The translations under genes were made by a program, and so were the position numbers. Below the pieces are notes generated by a model. That model was given only the letters and a program-made list of their open reading frames with translations. It was not told where the DNA came from and made no database searches. Below, in pieces: positions 13,602 through 23,606 of a stretch of 64,000 nt of DNA (position 1 is the first letter of the stretch; every line of letters starts with the position of its first letter). The stretch comes from Alkalihalobacillus sp. CinArs1 (lineage in GTDB: Bacteria > Bacillota > Bacilli > Bacillales > Guptibacillaceae): contig NZ_CANDOB010000002.1 of assembly GCF_947387515.1 (NCBI RefSeq), forward strand, positions 558,001-622,000. Reading direction: 5' to 3'.

Positions 13602-13656
13602 TGGATTAAGGAGAGTTTGGGAATGATGAGCGTAAAGAATGAAAGAGGTGCTCATC

Positions 13657-14379
13657 ATGGACATTTTAATGGACTCCTTGAAGGTTATCTTTCGTATTGC
13701 TACAATTCTTCCGCTCATGCTTGCGATCGGACTATATATGGGGAAGCGCTCGATCGGAGAGCTCCCAGTTTTTGATTTTCTCGTCGTACTCGTATTTGGT
13801 GCTGTTGTCGGAGCGGATATCGCAGATCCTAAGATCGACCATGTTCATACGGTTATCGCGATGATTGCGATTGCGCTTTTACAAAAGTTGATTATTAAAG
13901 TGAAACTAAAGAATCCAAAGCTAGGGAAGCTTTTTACTTTCGAGCCAACCGTTGTGATGTACCAAGGTACGTTTCTAAAGAAAAATATGAAACGCATTCA
14001 GTATTCGGTCGACAACATCCTGCAGATGTTACGAGAAAAAGATGTGTTTCATACGAGTGACGTTGAGCTTGCGATTGTTGAAGCGAACGGACAGCTGAGT
14101 GTAAAACTCTATCCTGGTAAAGAAGGCATTTTACGGGAAGATATGCAGATCTACAAAGCTGGGAACGACTATGAAATTCCTGTGATTTTAGATGGCAGGG
14201 TGCAGAGGGATCTGCTTGAGCGAATCGGCAAGACGGAGCAATGGCTATTGAATGAACTACATACGACTGGAAAAGGCGACGTAAGTGAGATTTTTTATGC
14301 TGGTGTTACGGGCCAGGGAGAGCTTTCCGTTTCAAAGAAAGATCTTCAAACGAATGATGCTCCTCCTATTGAGCATTAA
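13657..14379 (+). CDS. DUF421 (YetF-like) membrane protein
   Basis: A 240-residue protein with three N-terminal hydrophobic segments (RSIGELPVFDFLVVLVFG is characteristic), followed by the soluble DUF421 domain. Spore-formers carry several such proteins (for example YetF, YdfS); they are found in spore membranes. ATG 13657 follows AAAGAGGTG and is preferred over 13639. A GATGAGC/GCTCATC inverted pair (13625-13631 and 13650-13656) could fold the ribosome site into a hairpin loop. A second member is encoded at 51367-51987. Confidence 0.75.
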   Translation: MDILMDSLKVIFRIATILPLMLAIGLYMGKRSIGELPVFDFLVVLVFGAVVGADIADPKIDHVHTVIAMIAIALLQKLIIKVKLKNPKLGKLFTFEPTVVMYQGTFLKKNMKRIQYSVDNILQMLREKDVFHTSDVELAIVEANGQLSVKLYPGKEGILREDMQIYKAGNDYEIPVILDGRVQRDLLERIGKTEQWLLNELHTTGKGDVSEIFYAGVTGQGELSVSKKDLQTNDAPPIEH

Positions 14380-14498
14380 TCGGGCTTATTTTCCTACCGA
14401 CTTTCTTCTCATCATTTCGACATTTAAAGGATATCTTTAAGCGCTTAGAGAAAAGAAAAGGCGCAAGAGAGAATTGAAGGAAACGAGGAGGAAAATCC

Positions 14499-14876
14499 AT
14501 GATCGCAAAGCTTGGACAGGTAATGGTGTATGTGAAGGATCAAGATCAAGCCGTCACGTTTTGGACAGAGAAAATGGGGTTTGACGTCATCACAGAAGAA
14601 AATAAGGGGATGCGTTGGATCGAAGTAGCACCGTCTACATCTGCAGAAACGAGCATCGTTCTTCATAACAAAGACGTTATCGCAAAAATGCAGCCAGATA
14701 TGAATCTCGACACGCCTTCACTCATGTTTTTTACTAAAGAGCTCGATCATCTGCATGAAGATCTAAAACTGAAAGGTGTGAAGGTTGGGGAAATCGTGAA
14801 GATGGGAACTAACCGCGTCTTTAACTTTTCGGATTTTGAAGAGAATTATTTTGCGGTTGGGGAGAGAGCGGAGTAG
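14499..14876 (+). CDS. VOC superfamily (glyoxalase/bleomycin resistance) protein
   Basis: A 125-residue protein with one pair of beta-alpha-beta-beta-beta modules typical of vicinal oxygen chelate proteins: GQVMVYVKDQDQAVTFWTEK at the start and FSDFEENYFAVGE at the end. VOC proteins bind a metal and act as lyases, dioxygenases or sequestering proteins; the substrate cannot be assigned. AGGAGG precedes ATG 14499. Confidence 0.75.
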   Translation: MIAKLGQVMVYVKDQDQAVTFWTEKMGFDVITEENKGMRWIEVAPSTSAETSIVLHNKDVIAKMQPDMNLDTPSLMFFTKELDHLHEDLKLKGVKVGEIVKMGTNRVFNFSDFEENYFAVGERAE

Positions 14877-14927: not shown

Positions 14928-15341
14928 TCAGTCATAGATCACGTCTTTTCCTTCTTCACGCAATTTTTTCAGTGAAGTAAGCATTTGGTTGATTTCTTCA
15001 TCTGAGTGCCTTTCCCATGACTTTAACTCTGCTATGATCTTCAAAGGTGATTTCGAGCGATACGAACGTGTTGGGTTTCCTGGAAATCTTTTGTCCGTTA
15101 GATTTGGATCGTTTTCAAACTCACCTAATGGTTCAACGATATAAATTCTTTCTTTTCCGGTTGATTTCGCTAGTTCAGCACCCCACTTTGCAGCATTTAA
15201 CGTCGAGGTAAAATAAATGTGGTTCGATTTTTTGTCCTGAAAATTTGATAAATGCTGCGGCTTCAAATGATCTCCGATGTTGAGTTTCGCTTTCGTTCCA
15301 TGAAAGAAAGGACCGTTATCCAACACATCTTTATCATTCAT
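14928..15341 (-). CDS. arr: NAD+--rifampin ADP-ribosyltransferase (Arr)
   Basis: A 137-residue protein matching the Arr family from end to end: GPFFHGTKAKL at the start (NAD-binding His), NHIYFTSTLNAAKWGAELA, RIYIVEPLGEFENDPN, and FPGNPTRSYRS. Arr transfers ADP-ribose from NAD+ to the C23 hydroxyl of rifampicin, abolishing RNA polymerase binding; chromosomal copies are common in environmental Bacilli. It stands alone on the minus strand. It is not part of the metallophore operon beginning 450 bp away on the other strand. Confidence 0.88.
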   Translation of the reverse strand: MNDKDVLDNGPFFHGTKAKLNIGDHLKPQHLSNFQDKKSNHIYFTSTLNAAKWGAELAKSTGKERIYIVEPLGEFENDPNLTDKRFPGNPTRSYRSKSPLKIIAELKSWERHSDEEINQMLTSLKKLREEGKDVIYD

Positions 15342-15704: not shown

Positions 15705-15733
15705 TTTACAGAGCAAAAGGGTTTACCTATACT
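15705..15733 (+). promoter_or_regulatory. Sigma-A promoter of the cnt operon
   Basis: TTTACA (15705-15710) and TATACT (15728-15733) are separated by exactly 17 bp, placing transcription start near 15740, directly in front of the Zur-box palindrome. Confidence 0.7.
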
Positions 15734-15742
15734 ATAGTTTAT

Positions 15743-15763
15743 AAATCGAAACGATTTCGATTT
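15743..15763. promoter_or_regulatory. Zur-box-like operator of the cnt operon
   Basis: A 21-bp palindrome: AAATCGAAA, three bases, TTTCGATTT. By my alignment it matches 17 of the 20 informative positions of the Bacillus subtilis Zur consensus (outer AAATCG/CGATTT arms exact). It overlaps the expected transcription start, so zinc-loaded Zur would repress the operon. This matches the known zinc control of opine metallophore operons. Confidence 0.7.
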
Positions 15764-15792
15764 GTGAAAACCACTATTGTGAGGTGAACTTA

Positions 15793-16599
15793 TTGAAAGA
15801 AAAATATGAACTACTTTGTTCGTTGAAAGTAATCGAAGTCGAAATTGCAGAACTCGCCAGGTATGCAAAGGAATTCGATGGGTGCTACGATCTCTTAAAG
15901 AGCAAGTTGGATGATTTGTGTACGTTCATCACGAGTAAAGAGAACGATCAAAAATGGGACCAATGGGGCGCGATCGAAGAAGTTCAAGTCCTTTCGCATC
16001 AACTTCGCGAAACATCAGTCAATGCGTTATGTGAAGTAGAGAAATACCAGTCCAATCGCGCTCAGCAGGTGGGACTTCCCGTCGGACAATATTTATCCTC
16101 GTTAGCGAAAACGGTAAGGGATGAGTACAACAACTTCGGAATACATAGTAATTCAAACGTTTTATTTATTGGCTCTGGTGCATTTCCAACGACAGCTTTA
16201 ACGATTGCGAAAGAGACGGGTGCTGCAGTGATTTGTTTGGACATCGATCAAGAAGCGATTGCGTTATCTCGAGAAGTGGCGCGTGCTTCAGGACTAGAAG
16301 AGAAGATCTCATTTTTCCACGGTGACATCCACGCTCACCATAGCTTCGAGGGCATCACACATGTTTTTATTGCTTCACTTGTGAAAGACAAACATGAAGT
16401 CATCGAGGTGCTTAAGGAGAAGGTATGGGAAGGTACAAAAGTCATCGTACGATTCGGGAACGGTTTGAAGTCGATCTTTAATTACCCAATCGATAACATC
16501 ATCACAGGAAACTGGGTTCAGACGTACATTCACACTGAAAACAGTGACAGAATCTATGAAACACTCGTTCTTGAGAAAAAGACTCAGGTGATCTCATGA
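15793..16599 (+). CDS. cntL: Nicotianamine-synthase-like metallophore enzyme CntL
   Basis: A 268-residue protein, the length of staphylococcal CntL. It has the nicotianamine synthase Rossmann motif NVLFIGSGAFPTTALT (residues about 121-136) and the acidic AdoMet-ribose segment ICLDIDQEA. CntL transfers the aminobutyrate group of S-adenosylmethionine to histidine. No histidine racemase gene is adjacent, so L-His is the default substrate. TTG 15793 follows GAGGTG; GTG 15784 overlaps that site and is less likely. First gene of an eight-gene operon; the next ATG overlaps its TGA. Confidence 0.88.
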   Translation: MKEKYELLCSLKVIEVEIAELARYAKEFDGCYDLLKSKLDDLCTFITSKENDQKWDQWGAIEEVQVLSHQLRETSVNALCEVEKYQSNRAQQVGLPVGQYLSSLAKTVRDEYNNFGIHSNSNVLFIGSGAFPTTALTIAKETGAAVICLDIDQEAIALSREVARASGLEEKISFFHGDIHAHHSFEGITHVFIASLVKDKHEVIEVLKEKVWEGTKVIVRFGNGLKSIFNYPIDNIITGNWVQTYIHTENSDRIYETLVLEKKTQVIS

Positions 16600-17837
16600 G
16601 TGGAAGGCATACATTGATTGTCGGGGCAGGTCCTGCGGCCATCCAAACAGCAGTTGCTGTTAAGAAGAGCTGGAAGGGAGACGTATCGATTGTAAATCGT
16701 AATGGCTCCTATTCAGGACGGGTGCAAAATCAACTAAAGAATACTCAACATGTGGTCACGGCAATCGCCCCGAATTGGCCTTCCCTTTCTGGAAAAGTAG
16801 AAATCTCTCGTTTCTACAATGGCTTAGAGAGCGTTGAAGATCGGTTCGACACGATGATCGTCTGTGTTCCAAGCTACAGTTATGAAGATGTCCTTCGATC
16901 GATTGGGATTGGAAGGCTAACAAAACTTAACAAGATTATTTTGCTGTCACCCGTAATAGGATCGAACGAACTTGTTAGAGAGATCGTTTCTGAAACAGAT
17001 AAGAGCATTGAAGTAATTAGCCTTTCAAATTATTATGCCGCAACTAAATTCGTGCCTGAGGGCGACCTTGTTGCGTTTACGAAGGCGGTAAAAAAACGGG
17101 TTTACTTAGCTACGAGTAATGAAGGGTCTCTAAATGAAATCGAAATGCTATTACAAGAAGCTGGGGTCGAGACCGTTGTAAAAGAAAACCCGATCGATGC
17201 GGAATGTCGGAACATCACGACCTATGTGCATCCTGCATTCTTCATCAATTCTTTTTCATTGAATGAGATCTTTTCAGAGAAGAAATCCTTGAAGTCCCTC
17301 TACAAGCTTTATCCTGAAGGACCGATCACGAAAGAAACGATCATGGTCATGGTGAAGCTGTGGAAAGAGATCTCAGCGCTAACTGTGAAATTAGGAGGGG
17401 AACCGATCAATTTACTTCAATTCCTTAACGATGATAACTACCCTGTACACGAGGAGTCGCTGTCCCGTTCGGATCTTGATGGCTTTCAAGAGTTAGAAGC
17501 TGTGAAACAGGAGTATTTACTCTACATTCGCTATGCGTCGATCTTGATCGATCCTTTTTCACAACCTGATAAAAACGGTGCATACTTTGATTTCTCGAAA
17601 GTACCTTTTCAACAAATTTCAAGGAGCCCTTCTGGGGAATGGTGCGTTCCTAGAATCCCATTCGAAGATTATATGAACTTAAAGCAAATGCACCACCTTG
17701 GGTTTGAAAGGGGAATCAGATTACCAGAAATGTTTCGCTTGATTCAATCTTTCGAGCAAAAAGTCCATGAGTGGCAAAGCTTGAAGGGTGAGCAGGTAAG
17801 AGGGTTTCAGAGACTTGCAGAAAGGGAGATTCGATGA
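16596..17837 (+). CDS. cntM: Opine metallophore dehydrogenase CntM
   Basis: A 413-residue protein with an N-terminal dinucleotide fold (VGAGPAAIQ, residues 9-17) and the staphylopine-dehydrogenase domain (LYPEGPIT, NLLQFLNDDNYPV, ILIDPFSQPD). It reductively condenses the CntL product with an alpha-keto acid. Aligned with Staphylococcus aureus CntM, residue 33 corresponds to Arg35 (NADPH preference) and residue 150 to Ala149 in NYYAAT (Asp gives pyruvate selectivity, Ala permits alpha-ketoglutarate). This predicts a pseudopaline/bacillopaline-type product. It overlaps its neighbours by four bases at both ends. Confidence 0.9.
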   Translation: MSGRHTLIVGAGPAAIQTAVAVKKSWKGDVSIVNRNGSYSGRVQNQLKNTQHVVTAIAPNWPSLSGKVEISRFYNGLESVEDRFDTMIVCVPSYSYEDVLRSIGIGRLTKLNKIILLSPVIGSNELVREIVSETDKSIEVISLSNYYAATKFVPEGDLVAFTKAVKKRVYLATSNEGSLNEIEMLLQEAGVETVVKENPIDAECRNITTYVHPAFFINSFSLNEIFSEKKSLKSLYKLYPEGPITKETIMVMVKLWKEISALTVKLGGEPINLLQFLNDDNYPVHEESLSRSDLDGFQELEAVKQEYLLYIRYASILIDPFSQPDKNGAYFDFSKVPFQQISRSPSGEWCVPRIPFEDYMNLKQMHHLGFERGIRLPEMFRLIQSFEQKVHEWQSLKGEQVRGFQRLAEREIR

Positions 17838-18712
17838 AAAATGGCGTCCTGCTTGCAATACTATCTTCCTTGATCTTCAGTATCATGAACGCCCTCGTGA
17901 AAAGTATAAGTGACACGGTGCCGACTTCTGAAATCGTGTTTTTTAGAAGTTTCATAGGAACTGTCCTGATTTTCTTCTTTATGAGGAGCAGAAAGGTTTC
18001 TTTCTCGAGAAAAGGAATTCCGTTTCTGATGCTGAGAGGTGCGTTTGGAGCGCTGTATTTGCTCGCATATTTCTATACGATTTCTAAGATACCGCTAGCG
18101 GATGCGAGTATTCTCGCGCATCTATCACCTTTCTTTGCGGTGTTCTTTTCATACATGTTCTTAAAAGAGCGGGTGTCTAAGCAAGTTTTGCTCATCCTAC
18201 CGCTTGTTCTTGTTGGGATCGTGCTGTTAGCGAAGCCTGGTGCGTATTCATCATACTCACTCTATGCGCTCGTAGGAGTCGTGAGTGCACTATTTGCGGG
18301 TGCGGCGGCAACGAGTATCCGATTCTTAAGTAAAACACATCACTCGTTTGAAATCGTCTTTTATTTTCTGGCAACTGGGACACTCGTCTCCATTCCGTTG
18401 ATGTGGAATGATTTTGTGCTTCCAACTGCCGAAGACTTAACGATTCTTGTGGGAATTGGGGTTGTCTCCTTACTCGGACAAGTGTTTTTAACGAAGGCCT
18501 TTACTCATGAAAGTGTGGTCGTCGTTGAAATCGCGCGCTACATAGGGATTGTCTTCAACATCCTCTGGGGCTTTCTGTTCTGGGCAGAAGTGCCAGATCT
18601 ACTTACGATTTCTGGAGGGATTCTCATCGTCTCCGCGTGTATTTTACTATCGAGAAAAAAGAAACAGGTGAGGACGAAGGTGTCCTTACGACCTGTATTG
18701 AGAAGGCAATGA
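17834..18712 (+). CDS. EamA/DMT transporter, probable metallophore exporter (CntI-like)
   Basis: A 292-residue protein with ten hydrophobic segments and two EamA repeats (NALVKSISDTVPTSEIVFFRS at the start; LFWAEVPDLLTISGGILIV near the end). Its ATG overlaps the cntM stop and the uptake genes follow, so it belongs to the same transcript. In Pseudomonas the metallophore is exported by an EamA protein (CntI), while staphylococci use an MFS protein (CntE); this operon therefore uses the CntI solution. The export role is inferred from position. Confidence 0.78.
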   Translation: MKNGVLLAILSSLIFSIMNALVKSISDTVPTSEIVFFRSFIGTVLIFFFMRSRKVSFSRKGIPFLMLRGAFGALYLLAYFYTISKIPLADASILAHLSPFFAVFFSYMFLKERVSKQVLLILPLVLVGIVLLAKPGAYSSYSLYALVGVVSALFAGAAATSIRFLSKTHHSFEIVFYFLATGTLVSIPLMWNDFVLPTAEDLTILVGIGVVSLLGQVFLTKAFTHESVVVVEIARYIGIVFNILWGFLFWAEVPDLLTISGGILIVSACILLSRKKKQVRTKVSLRPVLRRQ

Positions 18713-18736
18713 CATGATAAAAAGGAGCAACAATTG

Positions 18737-20260
18737 ATGACTAGAAAAAAAGGATTTTATATCGTTGTATTATGTTTAATCACGCTTCTTTCTGCTTGTT
18801 CGTCCGCTTCTAACACGAGCGAGGCAGAAGGAGATAAAGAGATTACGTTTTTATCGAATTTTCCAAGCGATACGCTTGATCCACATTTAAGCTATACGCC
18901 AGTACGAGCAGGAATCAATGAAACGCTCGTTAAGATCAATGAAGACCTTGAACTAGAGCCATGGCTTGCGACAGGCTGGAAGAGTAACGATAACGGAAAA
19001 ACTTGGACGTTCACGATTCGAGAGGACGTTACATTCCAAAATGGTAAGACGTTAGATGCAAAAGCTGTGAAAAAATCACTCGAACGAAGTGTTGAAGTAA
19101 GCGAATCGATGAAATCCGCATTGAAACTTGATTCGGTTGAAGCGGAGGGCCAGACGCTTACCGTCACATTACAAGCCCAGGTTCCTGAGCTCCCTTCAGA
19201 GCTCGTGCATCCTAATACCGCAATTGTTGATAGTGAGGAGGACGATATCGAACAGAACCCGGTTGGAACTGGACCGTTTGCAGTCGCATCATTCTCACCA
19301 AGCAGTAAAGTTGAGTTGAAAGGAAATGCTGACTATTGGGACGGAGAGCCTAACCTCGATCGTGCAACGTTCACTTTTAATGAAGACGCGAATGCAAGAG
19401 GACTTGCACTTCAGTCGGGTGACGCTGACATCGTCTATCGTCCTGCCTTTGAAAGTCTTGATGTATTAAAAGAAGAAGGATCCATCAAAGCAGACGTGGT
19501 GCCAGGCATTCGATCCCAGCTGTTTCTCTATCATTTCGGCAGTGTCTTCAAGGATGAAAACATGCGAAAAGCATTTGATCTTATGATCGATCGAGAAGTC
19601 GTTGCAGAAAGTACACTCGCTGGTTATGCAACAGCGGCCGGTGGTCCGTTCTCCACAGAGCTCCCGTTTGCATCTAACGAAGAAAAAGCGTTTGATCTCG
19701 AACAAGCGAAGAAATACCTCGAAGAAGCAGGAGTCGAAATGAAAGATGGAAAGGCGATCAAAGATGGAGAGCAGCTTTCGTTAAAGGTGTTGACGTATTC
19801 GTACCGACCTGAATTACCATTGATGGCACAAATTCTTCAGTCGAATGCAAAAGAGCTTGGAATCGACATCAAGATTGAACAAGCGGAAAACATCGATGAA
19901 GCAATGGCTACCCAAGATGATTGGGACCTTGCAACTTACAGCTTATTAACAGCCCCTAGAGGAGATGCGAGCTTCTTCATGAATGCGGCCTATCGACCAG
20001 GCGGTTATTTGTATGAAGCAACGGGACTGAATGACCCAGAAATCACGAAGGTGGCAGATCAGCTCAATGCCACTGTTGAGCGAGAAGAACGACAAAAGCT
20101 AGCCATCGAAGCAAGTCAACACATCAATGAACATGCGCTTCACTCATTTATCGTGCATCCGAGTAATGTCGTAGCTTACAAAGACAGTGTGAAAAATTGG
20201 GTGACGAGTAAGAGTGAATTTTATGTGTTAACAAAAGACCTAGATGTAGAGACAAAATGA
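18737..20260 (+). CDS. cntA: Metallophore-binding lipoprotein of ABC importer (CntA/NikA-like)
   Basis: A 507-residue extracellular solute-binding protein of family 5 (peptide/nickel). A signal peptide ends in the lipobox LLSAC with lipidated Cys21. Family features follow: TLDPHLSY, LATGWKSNDNGKTWTF, NPVGTGPF and an FHxxxSxxxKDENMRKAFD-type stretch. It should capture the metal-loaded opine and deliver it to CntBC. ATG 18737 is used; TTG 18734 is adjacent, and AAAGGAG lies upstream of both. The next gene overlaps its stop by four bases. Confidence 0.85.
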   Translation: MTRKKGFYIVVLCLITLLSACSSASNTSEAEGDKEITFLSNFPSDTLDPHLSYTPVRAGINETLVKINEDLELEPWLATGWKSNDNGKTWTFTIREDVTFQNGKTLDAKAVKKSLERSVEVSESMKSALKLDSVEAEGQTLTVTLQAQVPELPSELVHPNTAIVDSEEDDIEQNPVGTGPFAVASFSPSSKVELKGNADYWDGEPNLDRATFTFNEDANARGLALQSGDADIVYRPAFESLDVLKEEGSIKADVVPGIRSQLFLYHFGSVFKDENMRKAFDLMIDREVVAESTLAGYATAAGGPFSTELPFASNEEKAFDLEQAKKYLEEAGVEMKDGKAIKDGEQLSLKVLTYSYRPELPLMAQILQSNAKELGIDIKIEQAENIDEAMATQDDWDLATYSLLTAPRGDASFFMNAAYRPGGYLYEATGLNDPEITKVADQLNATVEREERQKLAIEASQHINEHALHSFIVHPSNVVAYKDSVKNWVTSKSEFYVLTKDLDVETK

Positions 20261-21198
20261 AGCATGTAATAAGACGCATCCTTGAGCTAATCATTTTTCT
20301 CATGTTTCTATCATTCGTAAGCTTCAGTTTTATTAAGATGGCTCCTGGTGATCCGGCTATGTCGATGATGAAAACAGATGAAGTAGCGGTTACAGATGAA
20401 CAGCTGAATCAGCTTCGGGAAGAGCTAGGATTCAATGAGCCGATCTATGTTCAATACTGGAAGTGGATGCAAGGGTTCTTTCGCTTCGATTTCGGCAACT
20501 CGTATATGACGAAACAACCTGTGGGAGAGGAACTGTTAGAGAGATTACCAGCTACCCTTGAGCTGACGATTGCCTCCCTCTTCATCATGGTGGTCGTTGC
20601 TTTTCCGCTCGGTAGTCTCGCAGCGATCTATCGAAACACATTACTCGATGAAGCGAGTCGTCTGTTTGCACTTCTTGGAGCGTCAGTCCCTAGCTTTTGG
20701 CTAGGGCTGATTTTCATTCATCTCTTTGCAGTAGAGTTAAACCTGTTTCCTTCGATGGGGATGGGGTCATGGGAGCACCTGTTTCTCCCATCACTGACGC
20801 TCGGGCTTGCGATGGCAGCTGTCTACGTGCGCATTCTTCGATCAAGTTTATTGAATAGCTTCGGACAAGAATTTATACGAGCTGCCAAGGCAAGGGGGTT
20901 ATCTCGCCCCCGCGTTTTCTTTCACCATGCATTTCGCCATAGCTTGCTTCCTGTTATAACGATCTTCGGCGTTAGTCTTGGAAGTCTACTAGGTGGGACG
21001 GTCATCATCGAAGTACTTTTCGCTTATCCGGGGATCGGTAAGTTAGTGGTCGATGCGATTATGAAACGAGATTATCCAATCATCCAAGGTTATATTTTTC
21101 TCATGGGGATCCTCATCATGCTTATTAACTTAGCTGTTGATGCTTCCTATCATCTCGTACATCCAGAGCTTCGCATTAGAGAGGTGAAGCAGAGATGA
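20257..21198 (+). CDS. cntB: ABC transporter permease CntB (NikB/DppB type)
   Basis: A 313-residue permease with six hydrophobic segments. The start (VSFSFIKMAPGDPA) is typical of DppB/NikB permeases, and the EAA loop lies at FIRAAKARGLSRPRVFFHHA, where it contacts the ATPases. It forms a heterodimer with CntC. Translationally coupled at both ends through ATGA overlaps. Confidence 0.87.
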   Translation: MKHVIRRILELIIFLMFLSFVSFSFIKMAPGDPAMSMMKTDEVAVTDEQLNQLREELGFNEPIYVQYWKWMQGFFRFDFGNSYMTKQPVGEELLERLPATLELTIASLFIMVVVAFPLGSLAAIYRNTLLDEASRLFALLGASVPSFWLGLIFIHLFAVELNLFPSMGMGSWEHLFLPSLTLGLAMAAVYVRILRSSLLNSFGQEFIRAAKARGLSRPRVFFHHAFRHSLLPVITIFGVSLGSLLGGTVIIEVLFAYPGIGKLVVDAIMKRDYPIIQGYIFLMGILIMLINLAVDASYHLVHPELRIREVKQR

Positions 21199-22010
21199 AG
21201 CGACGTAGGTTACGAAGAAAAAGCATCGTTGTCATTTGGTTGTGTTTGGTGTTGGGGTTTATCGCGGCTACATATCTTGCACCTCACGATCCGCTTTCGA
21301 TCGATCCAACGAATCGCTTGCAACCAGTAACTCTTGAGCACATGTTTGGGACCGATCACCTCGGCCGCGATGTCCTGTCACGAATTCTCCACGGTGCAAA
21401 AACTACGGTAGGAACGAGCATACTCGTGATCCTCATCGTTCTTAGTATCGGTGTTCCGATTGGAATTATCGCAGGGGGAATCGGTGGTGTAGTAGACCGA
21501 GTGTTTATGAGAATCACGGATGCGTTCATGGCGTTCCCTGATTTTATCGTTGCCATCGTCTTAAGCGGGCTGCTTGGTCCTGGAATGGTTAACTTAATGA
21601 TGGCGATCATCCTTGTGAAATGGACGAGTTACGCTCGACTCGTACGAAGTACCGTCATCGAAGAAAAAGGAAAGAATTATATTTTAATAGCGGAGTTAAA
21701 CGGTGTACCGCCATTGGTTATTCTATTTAAACACCTTTTTCCACATGTGATCGGAAATGTGCTTGTGCTTGGTACACTCGACATTGGAAAAGTCATCTTG
21801 ATGATCGCTTCGTTATCTTATATCGGCTTAGGTGCACAGCCGCCGGCACCTGAATGGGGAGCGATGTTGAATGAAGGGCGAGCGTACTTTCAACTAGCAC
21901 CACATCTCATGGTGGTGCCAGGTCTTGCGATCGTCCTCGTTGTGTTAGCAACAAACCTACTTGGCGACCGTTTACGAGATTATTATGATGTGAAAACGGG
22001 AGGATCATGA
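21195..22010 (+). CDS. cntC: ABC transporter permease CntC (NikC/DppC type)
   Basis: A 271-residue permease with a basic N-terminus, about six hydrophobic segments and the DppC hallmarks MFGTDHLGRDVLSRILHGAK and APEWGAMLNEGR. The EAA-type loop is ILIAELNGVPPLVILFKH, slightly diverged from the usual AAxxxG form. It pairs with CntB. Four-base overlaps link it to both neighbours. Confidence 0.87.
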   Translation: MKRRRLRRKSIVVIWLCLVLGFIAATYLAPHDPLSIDPTNRLQPVTLEHMFGTDHLGRDVLSRILHGAKTTVGTSILVILIVLSIGVPIGIIAGGIGGVVDRVFMRITDAFMAFPDFIVAIVLSGLLGPGMVNLMMAIILVKWTSYARLVRSTVIEEKGKNYILIAELNGVPPLVILFKHLFPHVIGNVLVLGTLDIGKVILMIASLSYIGLGAQPPAPEWGAMLNEGRAYFQLAPHLMVVPGLAIVLVVLATNLLGDRLRDYYDVKTGGS

Positions 22011-22807
22011 TGCTAGAAATAGAGAATTTATCGATCACCTCGAAAAAGGAAACGCTCGTAAAGAACCTAACGATGTCGATCGATTCAGGCGAGTGGTTTG
22101 CGCTAGTAGGAGAAAGTGGAAGCGGGAAGAGCCTGACTGCTTCAGCGATCGGAGGGTTGCTTCCTAGTAATCTTTCTATCAAAAGTGGCTCGATCAGAGT
22201 ATGTAATCAAGATACTGTGAACATGAAAATACGTCAGCGCTTTCTTGGAAACACCATCACCTATATCTTTCAGGATTACAGCGGTGCATTTACCCCCTTT
22301 CTAAAAATAGGTGCGCAGTTAGACGAAGTGCTTAAAGCACATACGAGCTGGTCACGATCAGAAAGGCGAGTAGCAGTGGAGGAGGCGCTACGAAAGGTAA
22401 AGCTCCCTGAAACTGTGTATGAAAAGTACCCTCTTCAACTGAGTGGAGGACAGCTGCAGCGAGCTGCGATTGCGTCTGCGATGATGCTCAAACCTTCCTT
22501 ACTCATAGCTGATGAACCAACGACAGCACTCGATGCTTTAACAGCACAACATGTTCTTACTCTTATTCATGAATTAGCGTCTGAAGCAGGGTGTGCGGTG
22601 CTATTCATCACTCACGATCTAAGGCATGTCAAAAAACACGCAACACGAGTCGGCGTTTTGAAGGAGGGAACCTTAGTGGAGACAGGTACGAAGAAAGAGG
22701 TGTTTACGAACCCAAAACATCCTTACACGAACATGTTGTTGAGGTCGATTCCTGATTTGAAGAGTGAGACAACGAGATTGATTACGAGTGAGTATGATGC
22801 CTTATGA
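22007..22807 (+). CDS. cntD: ABC transporter ATPase CntD
   Basis: A 266-residue ATPase with Walker A GESGSGKS, Q-loop FQDYSGAFTPF, signature LSGGQLQRAAIA, Walker B LLIADEPT and H-loop FITHDL, all intact. The C-terminal oligopeptide-transporter-type tail (FTNPKHPYTNMLL) is present. It powers the CntBC permease together with CntF. Confidence 0.87.
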   Translation: MMLEIENLSITSKKETLVKNLTMSIDSGEWFALVGESGSGKSLTASAIGGLLPSNLSIKSGSIRVCNQDTVNMKIRQRFLGNTITYIFQDYSGAFTPFLKIGAQLDEVLKAHTSWSRSERRVAVEEALRKVKLPETVYEKYPLQLSGGQLQRAAIASAMMLKPSLLIADEPTTALDALTAQHVLTLIHELASEAGCAVLFITHDLRHVKKHATRVGVLKEGTLVETGTKKEVFTNPKHPYTNMLLRSIPDLKSETTRLITSEYDAL

Positions 22808-23562
22808 CTGAACCTCTCCTAAGCGTTTCGAATCTATCAAAGAGCTATCATCCTGGACATCCAGTCATCGAAAATGTAACCTTTTCGATTGGAAAAGGGG
22901 AGTGTCTTGGGTTAGTAGGAGAAAGTGGAAGTGGGAAAAGCACCATCGTTCGCTGTTTACTTCAGATGCAGCAAGACAGTGGGGACGTACAGTTTCAATC
23001 GAATGATCTACACAGATTAAAAGGCAGCGCATTACGCCGGGCGAGGCAAAACATACAGGTTGTTTTTCAAGACGCTTCAGAAGCGTTGAACCCTAAATTG
23101 AAAATTCTGGACTCGCTTATGGAGCCCTATGACGTTATGAGAAGAAAACTTTTTCATCGTAAGGAGAGAAGGGAGAAAGCGATCGAGTTGCTACGGATGG
23201 TGAAGCTACCACCATCCGTTCTCGATGCCTATCCGCATCAACTAAGCGGAGGCATGAGGCAGCGCGTCACGATCGCCCGTGCGATCAGTACGAATCCGTC
23301 TCTTCTTCTACTCGATGAACCCACTTCAAGCTTAGACGTTTCGGTTCAAGCATCGATTTTAAATCTGTTGAAAGATCTTCAAGAAAAACACGGATATTCC
23401 TACTTGTTTATATCGCATGATCTATCAGCGGTAGCATTTATGAGCGATCGAATCATGGTAATGAAAAATGGAAGTCTTGTCGATTCCTTTAAGAAAACAG
23501 AGCTGTTTCGTCCAAATCGGAATACGTATACGAAAGAGCTGTTGAGTGTTTATGAGAGTTGA
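22804..23562 (+). CDS. cntF: ABC transporter ATPase CntF
   Basis: A 252-residue ATPase with Walker A GESGSGKST, signature LSGGMRQRVTIARA, Walker B LLLLDEPTSSLD and the switch His in FISHDLS. It is the second ATPase of the dipeptide/nickel-type importer and the last gene of the cnt operon; a terminator follows. Confidence 0.87.
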   Translation: MTEPLLSVSNLSKSYHPGHPVIENVTFSIGKGECLGLVGESGSGKSTIVRCLLQMQQDSGDVQFQSNDLHRLKGSALRRARQNIQVVFQDASEALNPKLKILDSLMEPYDVMRRKLFHRKERREKAIELLRMVKLPPSVLDAYPHQLSGGMRQRVTIARAISTNPSLLLLDEPTSSLDVSVQASILNLLKDLQEKHGYSYLFISHDLSAVAFMSDRIMVMKNGSLVDSFKKTELFRPNRNTYTKELLSVYES

Positions 23563-23570
23563 TTAAAGGT

Positions 23571-23606
23571 GAAGTAGTCATTCTTTATGGGTGACTGCTT
23601 TTTTTC
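23571..23606 (+). terminator. Terminator of the cnt operon
   Basis: AGTAGTCA (23573-23580) pairs with TGACTGCT (one G-T pair) and is followed by TTTTTTT, 10 bases after the cntF stop. Confidence 0.7.

Follow-up and report, generated by a model that had tools for sequence, protein, structure and literature searches.

A putative zinc-starvation operon for a pseudopaline-type zincophore, with a NikA-type importer, in Alkalihalobacillus sp. CinArs1

Which opine would a bacterium make, and for which metal, if its metallophore operon carries no histidine racemase? The question is raised by an eight-gene operon of Alkalihalobacillus sp. CinArs1, found on a stretch of 64,000 nucleotides (contig NZ_CANDOB010000002.1, positions 558,001 to 622,000) that we call the window and by which we number its features. 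All eight genes lie on the + strand between 15784 and 23562, and profile matches give, in this order, CntL (nicotianamine-synthase-like), CntM and an EamA exporter, followed by an Opp-type ABC importer of five genes. Our analysis suggests that this is probably a zinc-starvation operon for a pseudopaline-type zincophore. The host genome has 4.03 Mb and is 99.8% complete, and its genus includes Pseudalkalibacillus hwajinpoensis, Alkalihalobacillus macyae and A. algicola.

Gene content and predicted product

The operon appears to cover the making of a nicotianamine-like opine, its export and its return into the cell, as the initial annotation had proposed, and the gene families and their order support this. 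Every reading frame is intact and lies where it had been placed; the expected four-base overlaps are present at six of the seven gene junctions, and the binding-protein gene follows eamA after a 21-nt gap. cntL encodes a nicotianamine-synthase-like aminobutyrate transferase according to the profile models. Its listed open reading frame (ORF) starts at GTG 15784, but a start at TTG 15793 (15793-16599, 268 aa) is more likely because the ribosome site GTGAGGTG stands just upstream. In the Pfam profile search CntL matches PF03059 with 51.1 bits (cut-off 27.1); the NCBI CntL model is matched with E 8.7e-42, but with only 143.2 of the 350 bits needed. cntM (16596-17837, 413 aa) encodes an opine dehydrogenase of the staphylopine/pseudopaline type, with 445.6 bits to PF10100 (cut-off 25, E 1.9e-133) and the pseudopaline dehydrogenase 6c4n as the best match in PDB (E 1.2e-89). 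Among the solved dehydrogenases it scores higher with that for pseudopaline (304 bits) than with those for staphylopine (266) and yersinopine (208). The EamA-family exporter (17834-18712) is identified by its Pfam profile with E 1.7e-33.

The absence of cntK from the window, which the initial annotation had pointed out, extends to the whole genome. The genome search suggested there gives no match to the CntK model NF033599 in any of five genomes of the genus, the host included, pyridoxal-phosphate-dependent (PLP-dependent) racemases being outside the search. The same model matches a gene in all five Asp150-type genomes, each time under the NCBI cut-off (222-239 of 300 bits). The diaminopimelate (DAP) epimerase family PF01678 is represented in the host by one gene, with both halves in one ORF of 288 aa, and we read this sole gene of the fold as dapF. 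We rejected a CntK-type racemase elsewhere in the genome on these grounds, which leave PLP-dependent racemases aside.

By the published rule one residue of CntM points to the keto acid. Position 150 of the Staphylococcus aureus enzyme (SaCntM) aligns with Ala149 of the window CntM (codon 17040-17042, + strand). Ala stands there in 17/17 aligned CntM of this class, the window included, and Asp in the three racemase-type CntM of the same alignment; more distant members of this class share 44-49% identity with the window CntM. Our survey took in 81 loci: the window, two more members of its genus, and 78 named loci that ranked best among 193 relatives. A CntM could be read in 79 of them (L073 and L119 gave no CntM ORF, since the longest frame was kept, and were left out), with 50 Ala, 25 Asp and 4 Ser at the selector, and we refer to these as A, D and S loci. 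By tblastn, 24 of 25 D loci show a racemase and 0/54 A and S loci do. Eleven columns of CntL part 24 D-type from 54 A/S-type enzymes, and the A/S residue stands at all 11 in the window enzyme and at 9 in that of P. aeruginosa PA7, although these columns were picked because the groups differ and mainly show on which side of the tree an enzyme lies.

The rules given in the accessible text of PMC7438024 are that a missing racemase means L-histidine, and that Ala at position 150 means alpha-ketoglutarate and Asp pyruvate. The P. aeruginosa CntL takes L-histidine and not D-histidine, as the consulted part of PMC5719457 states. The rule-based prediction that the initial annotation considered feasible can thus be made: we predict L-histidine plus alpha-ketoglutarate, i.e. 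pseudopaline or a stereoisomer, because there is no CntK racemase, the selector is Ala and CntL sides with the Pseudomonas L-histidine enzyme. Four Paenibacillus loci (L084, L087, L088 and L090) have Ser at the CntM selector and an extra methyltransferase-like gene, and another keto acid and a methylated product are possible there.

The importer and related systems

The importer genes were named cntA-B-C-D-F in the initial annotation, and these names do not hold. The solute-binding lipoprotein (18734-20260, with ATG 18737 the more likely start by its ribosome site) passes the Opp5A_nikA model NF045468 with 674.6 bits (cut-off 600), one permease (20257-21198) the Opp2B model NF045470 with 442 (350) and the other (21195-22010) the Opp2C model NF045474 with 350.3 (300). 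In contrast, the binding protein reaches 142.2 of 800 bits with the CntA model NF047575 and a permease 213.2 of 440 with the CntC model NF047573. Compared with solved chains, the binding protein scores 505.6 bits with 3t66, a 'nickel ABC transporter', 256 with SaNikA and 85 with 5yh5 and its kin, which we take to be S. aureus CntA chains. Neither of the two ABC ATPases exceeds a specific cut-off in the model matches listed: the first (22007-22807) has CntF and CntD as its best models and the second (22804-23562) NikE. By these comparisons the importer is of the Opp5A/Opp2 (NikA) type and not of the CntA type. Orthology to CntABCDF is rejected for the binding protein and the permeases by models, solved chains, tree and survey, and the ATPases do not decide.

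The same two importer types divide the survey. A NikA-type binding protein is encoded in 40/40 racemase-less (A and S) loci and a CntA-type one in 22/22 D loci, counting the loci with an Opp binding protein; the examined stretches of L116, L124 and L130 (D) and of 14 A-type loci hold none and stay outside these counts. The NCBI cut-offs agree for the binding proteins tested (9/9 A-type, 3/3 D-type), and a tree of 59 binding proteins splits into 39 and 20 on a long branch. Exporters are less strict, with EamA in 50/54 A and S loci and none of the 25 D loci, and the major facilitator superfamily (MFS) type in 4/54 and 21/25. No MFS exporter (CntE) is matched in the 21-kb stretch around the window operon, which has EamA. 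The A-type locus L089 encodes NikA-type and CntA-type binding proteins as well as an MFS gene.

How does this compare with the known systems? The accessible text of PMC7438024 defines an opine-like zincophore cluster by CntM, a nicotianamine-synthase-type synthase directly upstream, and an importer and an exporter within six ORFs. The window has CntM, such a synthase directly 5' with a 4-nt overlap, and EamA, SBP_bac_5 and BPD_transp_1 downstream. It resembles the bacilli in cluster 5 of the sequence similarity network of that survey (Morey and Kehl-Fie 2020), as far as they are described there, in having cntL directly before cntM, EamA, a dipeptide/oligopeptide-type importer and no racemase; this likeness is one of architecture and of a bacilli host. 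The racemase-less EamA and Opp architecture in bacilli was already mapped in 2020, and the initial expectation that the operon might newly define the metallophore of its group does not stand. The survey classed importers by Pfam alone, so that the split between NikA and CntA types is not visible there, and its consulted part characterises no cluster 5 product. We found no published report of this split in a literature search made mostly without full texts. What our sequence comparisons add is the importer family, a zinc-type operator motif, the exchange of importers and the presence of importers with Zur boxes in genomes without cntL and cntM.

The pseudopaline system cntOLMI of P. aeruginosa, according to the consulted parts of PMC5719457 and PMC7438024, likewise has CntL, CntM and EamA, no racemase, Ala at the selector and zinc regulation through Zur, which is represented in the window by a Zur box as a motif only. 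It differs in that its cluster includes a receptor for the outer membrane but lacks a gene for an inner-membrane importer, whereas the window operon holds an Opp-type importer. The staphylopine Cnt system of S. aureus and the Bacillales type with CntK and MFS share with the window CntL, CntM and an Opp-family importer, and some of their D loci have Zur boxes (see below). However, none of the four other features of staphylopine-type systems, namely the racemase, Asp150, the MFS exporter and the CntA-type importer, is found in the window operon. The models of the Opp5A/Opp2 (NikABCDE) nickel transporters are matched above their cut-offs by the binding protein and the two permeases. Unlike these transporters, the window importer shares an operon with metallophore synthesis and an exporter behind a zinc-type operator motif.

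Zinc control and competing readings

A zinc-type operator motif stands before the operon. The 21-nt inverted repeat AAATCGAAACGATTTCGATTT at 15743-15763 resembles a Zur box, which the accessible part of PMC4324032 describes as an inverted repeat whose flanks are also conserved, and is the sole site without mismatch in the genome. It starts shortly 3' of the -10 hexamer (ending at 15733) of a sigma-70-type promoter-like site, TTTACA-17-TATACT (15705-15733, + strand), found by hexamer scan with a 10/12 match. With up to 2 mismatches the Zur pattern has 15 sites in the genome, versus 2 for the reversed pattern. Nine of the 15 are found before the window operon, a CobW-permease-DUF1980 set (three sites), a CobW-S14 (rpsN) set that shares its four-site cluster with an oxidoreductase gene and a divergent ZnuA gene, and a second ZnuA gene. 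Genes of the znuA, CobW and rpsN types are Zur targets in B. subtilis. The host has three Fur-family genes, one of them adjoining genes read as ZnuB and ZnuC. Across the survey, a Zur box lies upstream of cntL in 28/49 A loci and upstream of cntK in 10/21 D loci (these being the loci, out of 50 A and 25 D, where cntL or cntK, respectively, could be located), versus an average of 0.01 or less for permuted palindromes. An intrinsic-terminator-like stem-loop with 13 pairs and a T tail, found by stem scan, follows the last gene at 23571-23601 (+ strand).

From these elements we infer a cycle of the following kind. Zinc-loaded Zur would occupy the palindrome that closely follows the -10 box, and a fall in zinc would let the eight genes be transcribed. 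CntL would transfer aminobutyrate from S-adenosylmethionine onto L-histidine, the substrate we favour because no CntK-type racemase would supply D-histidine, to give yNA. CntM would join yNA and alpha-ketoglutarate to pseudopaline or a stereoisomer, and EamA would export the opine. The NikA-type lipoprotein would then bind its Zn(II) complex, and probably nickel and cobalt complexes too, for import by the Opp2-type ABC transporter.

Several observations weigh against this reading. No Zur box is found upstream of cntL in 21 of the 49 A loci, which belong to Paenibacillus, Vibrio and kin, and clostridia, nor in the four S loci. The box is a motif and not a binding result, and the other six of the 15 genomic sites, five inside reading frames and one intergenic, stand by no zinc gene that we could see and are taken as background. 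The promoter-like site is the best of 11 in its stretch, but shuffles of the stretch give 13.3. The scan is at chance level, the site is weak by itself, and we rejected the hexamers as proof of a promoter. CntL and CntM fall short of the NCBI staphylopine equivalog cut-offs (143 of 350 and 346 of 675 bits), so that orthology does not fix their exact substrates. The two substrate rules rest on few enzymes, and residue 150 is described in the consulted part of PMC7438024 as not the sole determinant, further residues contributing. In the CntM tree the D enzymes all sit on one branch, so that the agreement between residue 150, racemase and importer type reflects one old split, and we do not claim many independent events. 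Finally, the NCBI models name the window importer nickel-specific.

The last point leads to the reading that the same biosynthesis serves nickel, or cobalt, as the physiological cargo. The binding protein and permeases are indeed over the cut-offs of nickel transporters, the nearest solved chains are named nickel-binding, and pseudopaline serves P. aeruginosa as a nickel carrier in poor media, according to the accessible text of PMC5719457. These model names, however, do not part metallophore importers from nickel importers, and the Zur-box motif is common to the operon and the zinc genes. The genome also has no convincing urease, the one nickel enzyme searched for, with two partial hits just over the Pfam cut-off of 23 (23.8 and 23.1 bits). 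We consider a nickel or cobalt operon improbable.

It is somewhat less improbable, though still unlikely, that the opine follows another recipe, with a different amino or keto acid (e.g. pyruvate or oxaloacetate) or with D-histidine from an unrelated racemase. Both enzymes are far from the characterised ones and under the equivalog cut-offs, the rules come from few cases in the consulted part of PMC7438024, and the racemase search did not extend to PLP-dependent enzymes. Against this stand Ala149, the Pseudomonas-like CntL columns and the lack of CntK in the five genomes of the genus. We see hardly any chance that the operon is decaying or borrowed and its product no longer made. The operon is patchy in the genus, with CntM in 7/14 genomes, and in one relative, G007, the importer persists along with a broken eamA while cntL and cntM go unmatched. 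But the window has eight intact frames, overlapping genes, an operator-like site and a base composition in the operon like that of the window. Zinc acquisition by a pseudopaline-type zincophore remains the reading that we prefer.

Importer exchange and importers without synthesis

The importer was exchanged within the genus while cntL-cntM-eamA stayed. In four relatives (G003, G004, G005 and G009) the proteins of cntL, cntM and eamA are 74-87% identical to those of the window and the importer proteins 42-53%, and these importers carry Zur boxes of their own. For G002 and G012 the identity to the window is 60-78% in the importer proteins, although it is 63-66% in cntM. Holding the window and the P. 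hwajinpoensis group together is rejected in the binding-protein tree (p-AU 2.4e-7), and grouping the window with the importer-sharing species is rejected in the CntM tree (p-AU 0.006), in tests on 19 chosen rows with groups named after the identities had been seen. Given the tree conflict and the identities, biosynthetic enzymes that differ little should be working with two distinct NikA-type importers. The Fictibacillus loci L062 and L080 provide a second case.

An Arr (rifampin ADP-ribosyltransferase) gene (14928-15341, - strand; NF033144, 186.7 bits, cut-off 130) lies directly upstream of the operon. A gene read as YetF/DUF421-like and a glyoxalase gene (13639-14876) lie upstream in the window but downstream in G002 (L027, 17001-18276), the glyoxalase genes being 92% identical, so that the place of the operon differs. 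Horizontal acquisition of the operon by base composition was rejected, its composition resembling that of the window.

NikA-type importers are also found in genomes without opine synthesis. Among 397 genomes of the order, CntM is over the cut-off in 34 and an Opp5A-type binding protein in 87. The latter is present in 21/21 genomes with A-like CntM (17 by the residue seen, four by score), in 6/12 with D-like CntM (nine of them classed by score), in 0/1 with a CntM fragment (G094) and in 60/363 without CntM over the cut-off. The difference between 21/21 and 60/363 gives a Fisher p of 6.5e-16, uncorrected for relatedness. The upstream DNA of all 60 CntM-less importers (L201-L260) shows a Zur box in 46, versus 0.03 expected, and none in 14; the next family, scoring about 250 bits, shows no Zur box at any of the nine binding proteins examined. 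The CntL model, which matches in three of three producers as a control, finds no CntL in 15 CntM-less importer genomes except for a 22-bit partial match in G052. A same-strand eamA-like sequence adjoins the importer in 12 of the 60, all with Zur boxes, and among these it is broken in G007 and a short match only in G097. In all four CntM-less loci tested, as in one producer, a MATE gene follows. G007, which belongs to the genus of the host (L147, L263), has an intact importer, eamA in pieces in two frames and no match for CntL or CntM, and is perhaps a producer turned non-producer. In a quick tree of 91 binding proteins the label with or without cntL-cntM needs 7 changes, 6 proteins from D-type genomes being left out of this count.

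Two further arrangements were observed. G016 has a nicotianamine-synthase-like gene (L261, 9760-10590, - strand; PF03059, 97 bits) and no CntM, with an eamA remnant nearby; the gene lies between a cluster read as NIS-siderophore-like and a NikA-type importer accompanied by a MATE-like gene. In G289, G248, G347 and G328 (L171-L174) CntM is far from the NikA-type importer, and Zur boxes precede the importer in the 3/3 with upstream DNA examined.

The importers with Zur boxes in CntM-less genomes suggest piracy or a metallophore-free mode. We speculate, with more doubt than conviction, that the NikA/Opp5A importer, with or without EamA, might be an autonomous Zur-controlled zinc-uptake module into which cntL-cntM are plugged and from which they are lost. 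Non-producers would then pirate the pseudopaline-type zincophores of their neighbours or use an ordinary metabolite, e.g. exported L-histidine, which is a building block of the opine. Piracy has a precedent since CntA without synthesis is read as cheating in staphylococci (PMC12709192, in the part consulted), and the histidine reading derives from the proposal of free histidine as a nickelophore (PMC5719457, accessible text). Against both, 48 of the 60 CntM-less importers have no adjacent eamA.

What would these results mean? The operon would be a Gram-positive example in which everything from making a pseudopaline-type zincophore to taking it back up, importer included, is encoded together, and the distinction of NikA-type from CntA-type importers offers a simple annotation rule. 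The importers with Zur boxes but without cntL and cntM make zincophore sharing and piracy directly testable with species pairs of one genus. If the module reading is true, many 'nickel ABC transporter' proteins of Bacillales would be zincophore importers, and the producer described here would feed its own non-producing relatives.

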